From Qipengyuania flavescens (lineage in GTDB: Bacteria; Pseudomonadota; Alphaproteobacteria; Sphingomonadales; Sphingomonadaceae): a stretch of 64,000 nucleotides of DNA. The stretch is taken from positions 186,001 through 250,000 of the forward strand of contig NZ_JARULD010000003.1 in NCBI RefSeq assembly GCF_029688735.1, in the 5' to 3' direction. Below are positions 31,364 to 36,661 of this stretch, piece by piece. The position numbers and the translations under genes were made by a program. The notes under the pieces are model-generated. The model was not told the DNA's origin, searched no databases, and was given only the letters and a program-made list of their open reading frames with translations. Position 1 is the first letter of the stretch. Each line of letters begins with the position of its first letter.

Positions 31364-32455
31364 TTACATGCCCGAACCCGGACCGTAGGTGATTTCCACC
31401 CGGCGGTTCTGCAGTTCGCGAACACCGTCGGCGGTCGGAACGCGGAGCTGGTTCTCACCGAACGCTTCGCTGGTGATCCGTCCACCCGGTACGCCGCGGC
31501 TGGTCAGATAGTCGCGAACCGAGTCGTTACGACGTTCTGCCAGACCCATGTTGTAGGCCGCCGAACCCGAGGTGTCGGTGTGACCTGCCAGCATGACTGC
31601 TGCCGTGCCGCAGTTGGTGTAGGCCGAAACCGCATTGTCGAGGATCGATGCCGCTTCCGGCGTGATCGTCGATTCGTCCCAGTTGAAGAAGACGATGTAC
31701 GGACCCGTCGCACAGGGTGCTTCCGGCGGCGGGGGCGGCGGCGGAGGCGGGGGCGGCGGGGGAGGCGGCGGCGGGGGCGGCGGAGGCGGCGGCGGGGTCG
31801 CGCCACCGAAGTTGAACGCGATCGAGCCGAGCACCGAGTGGGTGGTGAAATCGCCCTTCCAAGCGCTGGAGCCGTTCTCGCCGCCAGCGGTGAAATCGTC
31901 GATGTGATAGTAGCGATAACGCAGCGCGACATCGATCGTGTCGGTCAGCGGAGCGCGCACGCCGGCGATGCCCTGCCATGCGAACTCCCAGTCGCTGCCG
32001 TCTATTACTGGAGCAGCGGCGAGCGTCAGGCGCGGGTCGAGCTTGGCGGCACCGCCGCCGACGCCGAAGAAGAACTGGACGCCATCGTCCGGACCGAAGT
32101 CCGCGAGGATGTTACCCATGAAGCTCAGCGTGGAGACGTCACCGTCGATCAGGCCACCGTCGAAGGTAGCACCACCGGCCTGCAAGGCGTCGAAATCGGT
32201 GTTGCGATAAGCAGCTTCGACTTCCGTGCGGAACTGGCCGAAGTCGTGACCGACGATGATCGCACCGTCGTAACCGAAGTCGTCAGGCTCCAAGGTTGCC
32301 GGGCTACCGGTATTCGGAGCGATTTCGCGAACGTCGATATCTTCCGCGATCAGCGGGCCGAAGCCGAGTTCGACATAGGTCTGTCCATCACGAGCGATGG
32401 CAGGCGTGGCGAGTGCTGTGGAGCAGATCGCCGCAACAATTATTGGCTTGCGCAT
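31364..32455 (-). CDS. OmpA-family outer membrane protein with polyproline linker
   Basis: 363 aa. Signal peptide to about residue 21 (TPAIA); residues ~25-215 form a predicted eight-strand OmpA-like beta-barrel ending AFNFGG. A run of 24 prolines encoded by CCG/CCC/CCT codons links it to the periplasmic OmpA domain, which shows the peptidoglycan-binding pattern AGHTDTSGSAAYN and RRNDSVRDYL...NRRVEI. Tethers the outer membrane to the wall. A strong terminator follows. Confidence 0.93.
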   Translation of the reverse strand: MRKPIIVAAICSTALATPAIARDGQTYVELGFGPLIAEDIDVREIAPNTGSPATLEPDDFGYDGAIIVGHDFGQFRTEVEAAYRNTDFDALQAGGATFDGGLIDGDVSTLSFMGNILADFGPDDGVQFFFGVGGGAAKLDPRLTLAAAPVIDGSDWEFAWQGIAGVRAPLTDTIDVALRYRYYHIDDFTAGGENGSSAWKGDFTTHSVLGSIAFNFGGATPPPPPPPPPPPPPPPPPPPPPPPPEAPCATGPYIVFFNWDESTITPEAASILDNAVSAYTNCGTAAVMLAGHTDTSGSAAYNMGLAERRNDSVRDYLTSRGVPGGRITSEAFGENQLRVPTADGVRELQNRRVEITYGPGSGM

Positions 32456-34422: not shown

Positions 34423-35082
34423 CTAGCCTTTAAAGCCTTGGGCAATGACGTACCATTCGCTGGAGCCCTTGCGGCTGGCGGGGGGCTTGGCATGCTTCAC
34501 CGTTTTGAAGTGCTTTTTGAGCAAGGTCAGCAGGTCATTGTCGGTCCCGCCGGCCAGAACCTTGGCCAGATACGTCCCACCCGGCGCAAGGTTCTCGATC
34601 GCGAACCATGCGCCGGCTTCGACCAGGCCCATGGTGCGCAGGTGATCGGTCTGTTTGTGGCCCACGGTATTGGCGGCCATATCGCTCATTACCAACTCGG
34701 CCTTGCCACCCAGCGCCTCTTCCAGAACGCGCGGGGCATCGTCGTCCATGAAGTCCATCTGGAAGATTTCGACACCTTCGATCGGCTCTACTTCGAGCAG
34801 GTCGATGCCCACGACCAATGCCTTTGGCTTGCGCTTGCGCACCACCTGGCTCCAGCCGCCGGGCGCGATACCGAGATCGACGACGCGGGTTACGCCATTC
34901 AGCAACCCGTATTTCTCATCCAGCTCGATCAGCTTGTAGGCTGCGCGGCTGCGATATCCTTCCGCCTTCGCCTGCTTGACGTAAGGATCGTTGAGCTGGC
35001 GTTGCAGCCAGCGGGTCGAGCTCGCCGTGCGTTTCTTCGCGGTGCGAACCCGCGTCTCGCGATCCTTGCCGGAGCGGGCCAT
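34423..35082 (-). CDS. rlmE: 23S rRNA 2'-O-ribose U2552 methyltransferase
   Basis: 219 aa FtsJ/RrmJ family. SAM-binding motif VVDLGIAPGGWSQV; the K-D-K-E catalytic residues fall in YRSRAAYKLIELDEK, MSDMAAN, LAKVLAGG and SSEWYV. Methylates U2552 in the ribosomal A loop. The basic N-terminal 30 residues are typical of alphaproteobacteria. Lies downstream of ppx/gppA on the same strand, with the repeat cluster between them. Confidence 0.95.
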   Translation of the reverse strand: MARSGKDRETRVRTAKKRTASSTRWLQRQLNDPYVKQAKAEGYRSRAAYKLIELDEKYGLLNGVTRVVDLGIAPGGWSQVVRKRKPKALVVGIDLLEVEPIEGVEIFQMDFMDDDAPRVLEEALGGKAELVMSDMAANTVGHKQTDHLRTMGLVEAGAWFAIENLAPGGTYLAKVLAGGTDNDLLTLLKKHFKTVKHAKPPASRKGSSEWYVIAQGFKG

Positions 35083-35105
35083 TATGAGGGTTTCCTGTCG
35101 GGTGC

Positions 35106-35192
35106 GCTATCGACATCCGTCGATAGCTTGAGGCTGCTCCGTCCCACGCCCGGATTCATTTCTGGGCGAGCTATCGACATCCGTCGATAGCT
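35106..35192. repeat. Two direct copies of a 23-nt palindromic sequence
   Basis: The sequence gctatcgac-atcc-gtcgatagc plus T occurs at 35106-35128 and 35170-35192, identical in both. Each copy is itself a 9-bp perfect palindrome with a 4-nt centre. They lie between the ppx stop and the rlmE start, so could be tandem operators, stem-loops in the rlmE leader, or mobile-repeat ends. Confidence 0.8.
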
Positions 35193-35193
35193 C

Positions 35194-35276
35194 GCGGCAC
35201 CAGCCCACGCCCCCACCCGGCCACCCACGGCACTATTCTGTTTGGGTGGCCGGGTGGGGGCGTGGGCTGGTGCCGC
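35194..35276. repeat. 34-bp perfect inverted repeat
   Basis: Arms 35194-35227 and 35243-35276 are exact reverse complements over 34 bp, with a 15-nt loop (35228-35242). The arms are C/G-rich. The left arm starts one base after the second palindromic direct repeat. It has no T-run, so it is not a standard terminator. Confidence 0.85.
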
Positions 35277-35341
35277 AAGGAATGCGCGCATGCGCTTCCC
35301 GTACACAACAAAGACTCCGCAACCCGAGATACTACTCCCCA

Positions 35342-36550
35342 TCATACATCCTGCTCCCGCATCTTCTGCATGGCGGCGCGGCTGCGTTCGCCGTCGGCGT
35401 CGGCGGCGATCAGGCTGCGCAGGATGCCTTCGCGAATGCCGCGATCGGCCACGCCGAGCTGGACCGAGGGCCAGATGTCGAGGATCGATTCCAGGATCGC
35501 GCAGCCGGCGATCACGAGATTGGCGCGATCGTCGCCGATGCAGGGCAGCTGGCGGCGGTCGGCCTCGCTCATGCGCGAGAGGCGCGCGGAAATGTCGCGC
35601 ATCGCCTGCGAGGGCAGGATCAGCCCGTCGACGGCGCGGCGATCGTATTGTGGCAGTTCGAGATGCAGGCTCGCGAGCGTGGTGACCGTACCACTCGTGC
35701 CGAGCAGACGGATACCCTCGCTCGAGCGCGTATGCTCGCCGATCCGCTCGGCAAAACTGCGGAAGCTGCGAGCAACCGTCCGGCGCATTTCGCGATAGCG
35801 CTCCAGCCGGCCTTCCTCGCTGCCGTCGGACGGGCCGACCGTATCGGTCAGCGAAACGACGCCCCACGGCACGCTCAACCAGTCGAGGATGCGCGGGACC
35901 GGGCCGCCGGGTTCGACGAGAACCAGCTCGGTCGAACCGCCGCCGATGTCGAAGATGATCGCGGGACCGTTCCCGTCTTCGAGCAGGACATGGCAGCCGA
36001 GCACCGCCAGTCGCGCCTCTTCCTGCGCGGAAATGATGTCGAGGACGATGCCGGTTTCCGCTTTCACCCGTTCGATGAACTTGGGGCCATTCGCGGCGCG
36101 GCGGCAGGCTTCGGTCGCGACCGAACGGGCGAGGCGGACATTGCGCCGGCGCAGCTTTTCCGCGCAGACTTGCAGCGCGGCGAGCGTGCGGTCCATCGCC
36201 TCGTCCGACAGCCTTCCGCTTGCAGCCAGCCCTTCGCCCAGCCGGACGACCCGGCTGAATGCATCGATGACCGTGAAATCCGCCCCGCTCGGCCGCGCGA
36301 TCAGCAGGCGGCAGTTGTTGGTACCAAGGTCGAGCGCGGCGTAGGCCTGGCGGTGGTGCGTGTTCGGTCCGGCATTTGCGGTCGGCCCGCGTCCGGCTGT
36401 GCCTTTGCGCGGTGCACGGGGGCGAGCTTCGCCTCTCGTCTGGTCGGGCCGGGCGGGGCGCTTGTAGCGGAAATCGGCTACCTTGCCGGACTTGTCGCCC
36501 CGTTTGCGTCCAGGCCCCCTTGTAATGTCCGGCGGAGGACTGTCCGCCAT
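35342..36550 (-). CDS. Ppx/GppA family phosphatase
   Basis: 402 aa from ATG 36550 (ATG 36583 also possible). Residues ~1-65 are Arg/Pro-rich and probably disordered, an extension compared with E. coli GppA. The ASKHA fold shows ALDLGTNNCRLLIA, FDIGGGSTELVLV and LLGTSGTVTTLA. Exopolyphosphatase or pppGpp phosphatase; the sequence alone does not decide. It may share a transcript with rlmE. Confidence 0.88.
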   Translation of the reverse strand: MADSPPPDITRGPGRKRGDKSGKVADFRYKRPARPDQTRGEARPRAPRKGTAGRGPTANAGPNTHHRQAYAALDLGTNNCRLLIARPSGADFTVIDAFSRVVRLGEGLAASGRLSDEAMDRTLAALQVCAEKLRRRNVRLARSVATEACRRAANGPKFIERVKAETGIVLDIISAQEEARLAVLGCHVLLEDGNGPAIIFDIGGGSTELVLVEPGGPVPRILDWLSVPWGVVSLTDTVGPSDGSEEGRLERYREMRRTVARSFRSFAERIGEHTRSSEGIRLLGTSGTVTTLASLHLELPQYDRRAVDGLILPSQAMRDISARLSRMSEADRRQLPCIGDDRANLVIAGCAILESILDIWPSVQLGVADRGIREGILRSLIAADADGERSRAAMQKMREQDV

Positions 36551-36661
36551 GATAAGGAGCTTTCTTCTTTTTTCTTCCCACACCGACCGTCGGGCGCGGG
36601 GACTTGAGGTCGATGCTAGCCGTGAAGCGCAAAGGGGGCAAGAGGGGCCGCCGGAGCGGGG

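Follow-up and report, generated by a model that had tools for sequence, protein, structure and literature searches.

What kind of sequence separates ppx/gppA from rlmE in Qipengyuania flavescens, where palindromic direct repeats stand next to a long and exact inverted repeat? The initial annotation of the window (the whole stretch of 64,000 nucleotides that was analysed) had described two identical 23-nt copies between the two genes, followed by an inverted repeat whose 34-bp arms match perfectly around a 15-nt loop, and had offered three explanations: a non-autonomous mobile element, a folded RNA in the rlmE leader, or the remnant of an integration.

Composite palindrome at the ppx-rlmE junction

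The description itself holds. The two copies of GCTATCGACATCCGTCGATAGCT lie at 35106-35128 and 35170-35192, 64 nt apart from start to start and within a 35-nt repeat that is 89% alike, and the perfect inverted repeat lies beside them between ppx/gppA and rlmE. The palindromes at this junction exceed chance: in a scan of the window for arms of at least 16 bp and loops of 3-40 nt the inverted repeat is the longest perfect one, and the longest repeats in three shuffles of two-base blocks were 11, 10 and 14 bp as against the 34 bp observed. RNA folding of 35070-35330 (minus strand) gave -167.3 kcal/mol versus a shuffle mean of -107.6 (sd 5.5, n = 200; z = -10.85). The initial annotation had overlooked a third hairpin, built like the other two but less perfect and pointing the opposite way; with it, the whole element spans about 35091 to 35317 and consists of the following parts, given with the flanking genes:

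34423..35082, minus strand: rlmE (FtsJ family, PF01728), flanking, outside the element
35102..35131, plus strand: outer hairpin 1, class A, an extra tandem unit; tag GTGC at 35102-35105, stem GCTATCGAC / GTCGATAGC, loop ATCC, tail TTGA
35166..35195, plus strand: outer hairpin 2, class A, left partner of the central palindrome; stem identical to that of hairpin 1, degenerate tag GCGA
35194..35227, plus strand: central palindrome, left arm, 34 bp, perfect
35228..35242, plus strand: central loop, 15 nt, CGGCACTATTCTGTT, type T1, forward
35243..35276, plus strand: central palindrome, right arm
35213-35257: core (inner 14-15 bp of both arms and the loop), which matches the pattern in other alphaproteobacterial families
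35275..35304, minus strand: outer hairpin 3, class C, right partner; tag GTAC, loop ATGC, tail TTGC, stem GGGAAGCGC / GCGCATTCC with 7/9 pairs
35305..35317, minus strand: outer box, right end, minus reading GAGTCTTTGTTGT; GANTC at 35313-35317
35342..36583, minus strand: ppx/gppA (PF02541), flanking, outside the element

The tag of hairpin 1 is 19 nt away from the rlmE start codon, and the end of hairpin 3 is 37 nt away from the ppx/gppA stop codon. NCBIfam matches of both proteins fall under the curated cut-offs, and the best named matches of rlmE are from Qipengyuania, with up to 94% identity. Apart from the outer box, GANTC occurs in the element between the tandem units (35153-35157) and is absent from the loop. 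Elsewhere in the window (31364-32455, minus strand) an OmpA-family protein is encoded in which a long proline run separates the beta-barrel domain from the OmpA domain.

A terminator or promoter at the element was considered and none was found; intrinsic terminators numbered 0 on both strands of 34900-35500, and T-rich boxes precede the hairpins and do not follow them. MicroRNA models attract any long perfect hairpin, and such models made up most of the sub-cut-off matches in Rfam 15 (16 matches at E up to 1, all under the cut-off); 7 further loci gave 0 matches at the cut-off. An attC-like integron site was also considered and dropped because the motifs face the wrong way, and the integration remnant found no support.

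A dispersed element in the genome and in relatives

The feature belongs to a family of copies scattered over the genome (2.98 Mb in 13 contigs, labelled G000), in which 8 occurrences of the palindrome and 11 of the arm were found with at most 3 mismatches. The copies follow a common plan: a box ending in TTTGTTGG is followed by a hairpin (tag GTGC, 9-bp stem, loop ATCC, tail TTGC, hence the short layout GTGC-9 bp-ATCC-9 bp-TTGC), by a palindrome of ~34 bp with a 15-nt loop, and by the same hairpin inverted. Some sites are single or tandem hairpins, and a few are pairs without the centre. A hairpin pattern that leaves the stem free (up to 2 mismatches) found 39 places in the genome, outer hairpin 1 among them, versus 2 for the reversed control, corresponding to 21 catalogued sites, and a covariance model built on 47 hairpins gave 46 matches. 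The tag reads GTGC in 208 of 249 matches of a finder that itself favours this tag, and the loop reads ATCC in 202 of the 249. Of 215 hairpins, 36 have a GANTC that begins at position -13 relative to the tag, versus a mean of 0.53 per position between -60 and -23. At one site (L018, G000:C6:204322) the copy ends, by eye, near what appears to be the acceptor piece of a two-piece tmRNA. Uniqueness of the sequence, on which the initial annotation had made an RNA structure depend, is thus not what we observe, and the assembly error it had also considered is unlikely, since the A-A/C arrangement recurs at this junction in the genome G057.

Genes around the sites were called by codon-position divergence, a codon-score finder having been dropped for spurious genes across some elements. 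Stop codons are close to the element at 11 of the 21 sites, with 8-18 nt between the codon and the nearest tag. The flanking genes are codirectional at 14 sites, convergent at 4 and divergent at 3 (window background 29, 14 and 13, respectively); two of the divergent sites, C5:424790 and C5:493182, are weak calls that look codirectional by their translations, and the calls at C5:443636 and C6:204322 are doubtful. Ribosome stalling is reported for REPs that lie no more than 15 nt from a stop codon, as stated in the part of the RepRanger report cited here (PMC12306157), and by analogy the present element may act on transcripts through such stalling or through 3'-end protection, both of which are reported for REPs. 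A structured RNA or bidirectional terminator under selection at each site would fit the strong fold, the covariation described below and the close stop codons. This explanation is nevertheless very unlikely in our view, as there are 0 terminator-like sites, the T-rich boxes come before the hairpins, G-U pairs, which selection on RNA would allow, are few, 30 of 60 genus genomes have no hairpin match, and 17 of 30 ppx-rlmE sites are empty. Of the folded RNA in the rlmE leader proposed initially, the strong fold stands, but not the tie to rlmE, the same element being found at 21 sites.

Within the genus, hairpin matches (E up to 0.01) were obtained in 30 of 60 genomes and numbered from 0 to 49 per genome over the 60; G023 and G044 have no hairpin match, yet contain one core palindrome each. 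In these two loci (L312 and L317) the core palindrome is located just ahead of an apparent mutM start, in a neighborhood that apparently equals the site C7:172716 of G000 (L007/L044), as judged by eye from unaligned sequences.

The ppx-rlmE junction was surveyed in the best 30 of the 60 genus genomes by rlmE match, G000 included. In 17 of them the two genes overlap by 1-8 nt and the site is empty, in 10 the gap measures 108-265 nt and contains two or more hairpins, and the remaining 3 have gaps of 69-113 nt with at most one hairpin match. The junction of Q. mesophila is filled with other ends, that of Q. flava holds a spacer of ~108 nt without palindrome, and that of five other Qipengyuania species is empty. 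The overlapping gene pair is probably the older state; at this locus, the element would separate rlmE from ppx and so keep apart two genes that overlap in those 17 genomes. G000, G059, G057, G002 and G041 form one filled clade, which makes inheritance in place likely among these five close species. The tree of ppx and rlmE, which is weak, needs 5 changes of state, of which at least 2 are forced by well-supported branches, and on this count repeated insertion or transfer at the junction is possible. A comparison of empty and filled flanks revealed no clear target duplication.

Repeated insertion into preferred sites behind stop codons is what one would expect of a classical MITE with terminal inverted repeats (TTTGTTGGGTGCG), recognised in trans by the DDE transposase of some insertion sequence, and ends that differ at one site would then mark independent insertions. 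The ends are indeed inverted, many copies carrying the TTTGTTGGGTGCG box on either side, the hairpin number is patchy among the 60 genomes (0 to 49, with 30 positive), the junction is filled in at least two lineages, and some duplication around the gene overlap would be needed for both genes to stay whole. However, no autonomous copy was seen in two of the stretches with hairpins 3-4 kb apart (L171 and L168), which hold ordinary-looking genes that read as recO/leuB-like and his-operon-like in translation. Fresh insertions are also a poor fit to the sharing of 19 and 21 of 21 sites with two relatives, and to a loop orientation that is kept in 25 of 30 comparisons while the ends change (both discussed below), and we regard a MITE as unlikely. 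Among the three initial explanations the non-autonomous mobile element is nonetheless the best supported, through its many copies, the empty sites in relatives and the lack of a gene inside; what speaks against it is that neither a clear target duplication nor a partner transposase was found.

End hairpins at shared sites

The stems of the genus can be grouped into class A (GCTATCGAC, GCCTTCGAC), class B (GGTCAGGAC, GGTCGGGAC, GGGCCGGAC and others) and class C (GGAAAGCGC, GGGAAGCGC and others). Neighborhoods were compared for 23 of the 24 hairpin clusters of G057 and for 24 of the 26 of G059, and of the 21 sites of G000, 19 were recovered in the former and 21 in the latter, with flanks 89.6-96.8% identical (one of the 19, L232, retains just a degenerate hairpin). 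These 21 sites common to close species reveal different stems at the same places. In 39 same-site comparisons of G000 with G057, G059, G041 and G002, which are not independent, as sites and species recur among them, stems with at most 2 differences were counted as same: both ends were the same in 12 comparisons and exchanged in 11, one end was kept in 10 and neither in 4, and 2 had no dimer. The orientation of the asymmetric central loop was unchanged in 25 of 30 comparisons and inverted in 5; by site (n = 14), it was always the same at 9, mixed at 4 and inverted at 1. Most simply read, each site goes back to a single old insertion that was inherited and had its ends replaced in place, and the end hairpins appear to have been swapped at fixed genome sites. 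Inversion of the whole element was rejected as the sole cause of exchanged ends, as 7 of 10 exchanged cases keep the loop orientation and 3 do not. When the loops of 55 dimers are set CGGCAC-forward, B-left/A-right (23) is seen more often than A-left/B-right (7), with the orthologous sites among them not being independent.

The two ends that face each other across an element differ. None of 58 convergent pairs from four genomes had similar stems (at most 2 of 9 bases different), versus 16.9 pairs on re-pairing (20,000 re-pairings within genomes), with p-values for single genomes of 0.0014 (G000), 0.0044, 0.0035 and 0.087 (G041). Over all 79 listed pairs, 1 was alike, from outside the genus, versus 22.4 expected. 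No such rule is followed by tandem neighbors, of which 6 of 23 are alike, near the re-pairing share for convergent pairs, and the tandem pair of the window has identical stems. In the centre the opposite holds, with matching arms in 49 of 51 elements versus 30.2 on re-pairing. Since facing ends differ and centre arms match, the structure that is kept comprises three hairpins that stay separate. With matching ends, an element would form a single palindrome, with arms that we roughly estimate at ~65 bp, and this is probably the reason why alike facing ends are nearly absent: a single very long palindrome in place of three hairpins would probably be lost or would not work. SbcCD was discarded as the filter against matching ends, since SbcD (TIGR00619) was not found in any of 5 Qipengyuania genomes, two of them hairpin-free (E. 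coli control positive). As SbcD is an obvious remover of long palindromes, this weakens one form of the argument from instability, and its apparent absence may allow long palindromes to persist. The facing-ends rule, which the tandem control breaks, represents a clear and testable constraint on palindrome maintenance.

Complementarity of the stems is kept through change. In the 47 hairpin sequences 94.1% of cells were paired versus 62.5% in shuffles, and both sides had changed in 127 cells versus 46.7; two of the five measures were no higher than in shuffles, with changes on both sides at 7 of 9 pairs (reached by 354 of 500 shuffles) and a number of pair types that was not raised (493 of 500). 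Because the search pattern used to select the sequences holds part of the stem fixed, the weight of the covariation lies on the free middle positions. The 249 finder matches include 27 perfect-stem alleles, and new stem alleles outside the genus, e.g., in Novosphingobium panipatense, are nearly all complementary. Among 2241 pairs 20 were G-T or T-G and 48 were A-C, and the low number of G-T pairs makes the pattern unlike slow RNA evolution via wobble pairs. Eight of 111 imperfect hairpins are mosaics combining the arms of two known perfect alleles, 6 by a single base and 2 by two bases (GCCTTCGAC with GTCGATAGC, both in G057), and these few cases may be the product expected from recombination in the conserved loop. 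One-step mending of hairpins by template switching is a published mutation process, as outlined in the part of PMC8794818 cited here.

We favor, with moderate confidence, the reading that the feature is a non-autonomous, dispersed REP/REPIN (BIME)-like element with its own tag, whose ends turn over in place. Two tagged hairpins in opposite orientation would enclose a structured spacer, here a long conserved palindrome, and the end hairpins would be replaced via ectopic gene conversion or template switching during replication, to which the few mosaics point. A bolder form of this reading, which we put forward tentatively and consider rather doubtful, is a self/non-self rule by which the conserved central palindrome would need unlike end hairpins and a dedicated single-strand recombination other than that of RAYT would move the ends, as exchangeable modules, from one fixed site to another; if true, the element would represent a novel kind of modular repeat whose modules are exchanged in place.

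Distribution in Alphaproteobacteria and comparison with known repeats

The covariance model, used with a strict cut-off and favoring Qipengyuania stems, gave hairpin matches in 21 of 196 genomes and 6 of 63 genera of the order. The exact inner arms of the central palindrome were found in 23 of 196 genomes and 10 of 63 genera of the order and, at class level, in 12 of 385 genomes and 9 of 277 genera, own genus included, with 0 for the reversed controls in the rows listed. The central palindrome is present on 3 of 72,556 plasmid records (Novosphingobium, Sphingomonas, Sphingopyxis). A phage origin was rejected, with no match in phage records and one viral contig carrying a single hairpin without the centre. 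The core of the central palindrome occurs in several families of Alphaproteobacteria, which suggests either sequence-specific recognition or wide horizontal spread, and the outer parts around it are lineage-specific and, by eye, often hairpins unlike on the two sides. In 43 loci (7 of them from Qipengyuania) the arm positions 15-17, 19, 21-23, 26 and 27, which the search pattern leaves unfixed, hardly vary. Positions 18, 20 and 24 do vary but stay paired (in 41, 40 and 39 loci), and pairing is poorer at positions 25, 28 and 31 (in 29, 24 and 29). GANTC was counted 20 times near elements outside the genus versus ~7 expected, in 12 of 37 elements. In two loci (L330 of G434 and L335 of G526) half-units of the central arm stand in tandem ahead of the full palindrome, and L335 has a GGAGTC junction like that between tandem units of G000 (L007).

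How REP-like repeats without a transposase spread, and why their stems stay perfect, is a standing puzzle. The present element shares with REPs a palindrome of 20-40 nt in many intergenic copies, and an unpaired GTAG or CGTC tag at one end was not seen. It shares with REPINs the arrangement of two REPs inverted around a pairing spacer (79 convergent pairs listed, a few of them without the centre), and no RAYT flanked by the repeat was found. Y1_Tnp genes were searched in a set of 21 genomes and in 11 copy-rich ones; they were absent from 10 of the 11 (0 matches in G000) and from all 13 members of the first genus sample. The exception is G057 (G057:C6:76691-77017, within L270), whose contig C6 has no listed hairpin match, and none of the 8 Y1_Tnp loci taken from the order's other families showed such hairpins, a weak comparison as these genomes may not carry the element at all. 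A REPIN mobilised by a RAYT that has since been lost from most genomes, leaving an old population to decay and recombine, would explain an anatomy that, as far as the cited descriptions go, equals that of REPINs and REP heterodimers. In the part of PMC8266576 cited here TnpA_REP is reported to cleave and recombine REPs, which could yield the exchange of ends, and the one Y1_Tnp gene does occur in a copy-rich genome. But its absence from the other copy-rich and first-sample genomes, its location on a contig without listed hairpins, the 0 of 8 loci elsewhere (weak as noted) and a tag other than GTRG render this history improbable.

The preferred REP/REPIN-like element can be compared with the GTAG/CGTC superfamilies of REPs, from which the following features are taken as given in the main text of Di Nocera et al. 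(2013, PMC3733652). REPs of the CGTC type occur mainly in Alphaproteobacteria, have no dedicated transposase, and consist of an 8-9-bp stem with a 4-5-nt loop. Like the members of both superfamilies, our element is a short tagged hairpin, intergenic and mostly behind ORFs, which forms head-to-head dimers with structured spacers as well as heterodimers. Unlike them, it has the tag GTGC, the tail TTGC, a stem with G-C at its start and C-G at its end, a loop that is mostly ATCC, facing ends that differ, and a long spacer palindrome with a core common to several families. E. lithoralis and several sphingomonads carry other REPs (PMC3733652), and a word search of that main text yielded neither 'GTGC' nor 'Erythrobacter'. 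A literature search for REP repeats in Sphingomonadales, Erythrobacter, Sphingomonas and Qipengyuania returned nothing relevant in main texts, to which it was confined, so that an earlier description is possible. RepRanger predicts thousands of REPs in many bacteria, 3,055 of them in Erythrobacter cryptus of a related genus (PMC12306157); theirs is a broad count of palindromes, and the part of the report cited here describes no element of the present plan.

The GANTC sites near the hairpins also recall a repeat of Caulobacter. CIR are reportedly the CcrM-associated intergenic repeats described in that genus by Chen and Shapiro in 2003. By the descriptions in the cited parts of PMC2229807 and PMC10969869 they are, like our element, alphaproteobacterial and intergenic, with ~110 bp, two stem-loops and a GANTC site; unlike in CIR, where GANTC is at a terminal loop, it is found here in the outer box of some ends, as far as descriptions can be compared. 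E. coli BIMEs, built from y, z1 and z2 REPs, are similarly mosaics of a few REP classes with two REPs inverted (PMC8266576, part cited), whereas in our element A, B and C each pair with the others, around a long palindrome. A further parallel in anatomy is with REPINs, which in the part of PMC3116915 cited here likewise consist of two inverted hairpins around a pairing spacer with compensatory changes, and which are discussed there as folding either into a single long hairpin or into a clover whose end hairpins are separate. Unlike REPINs, the element has no RAYT in 10 of 11 copy-rich genomes, and as its ends differ they disfavor the single long hairpin, so that the fold of three hairpins is left.
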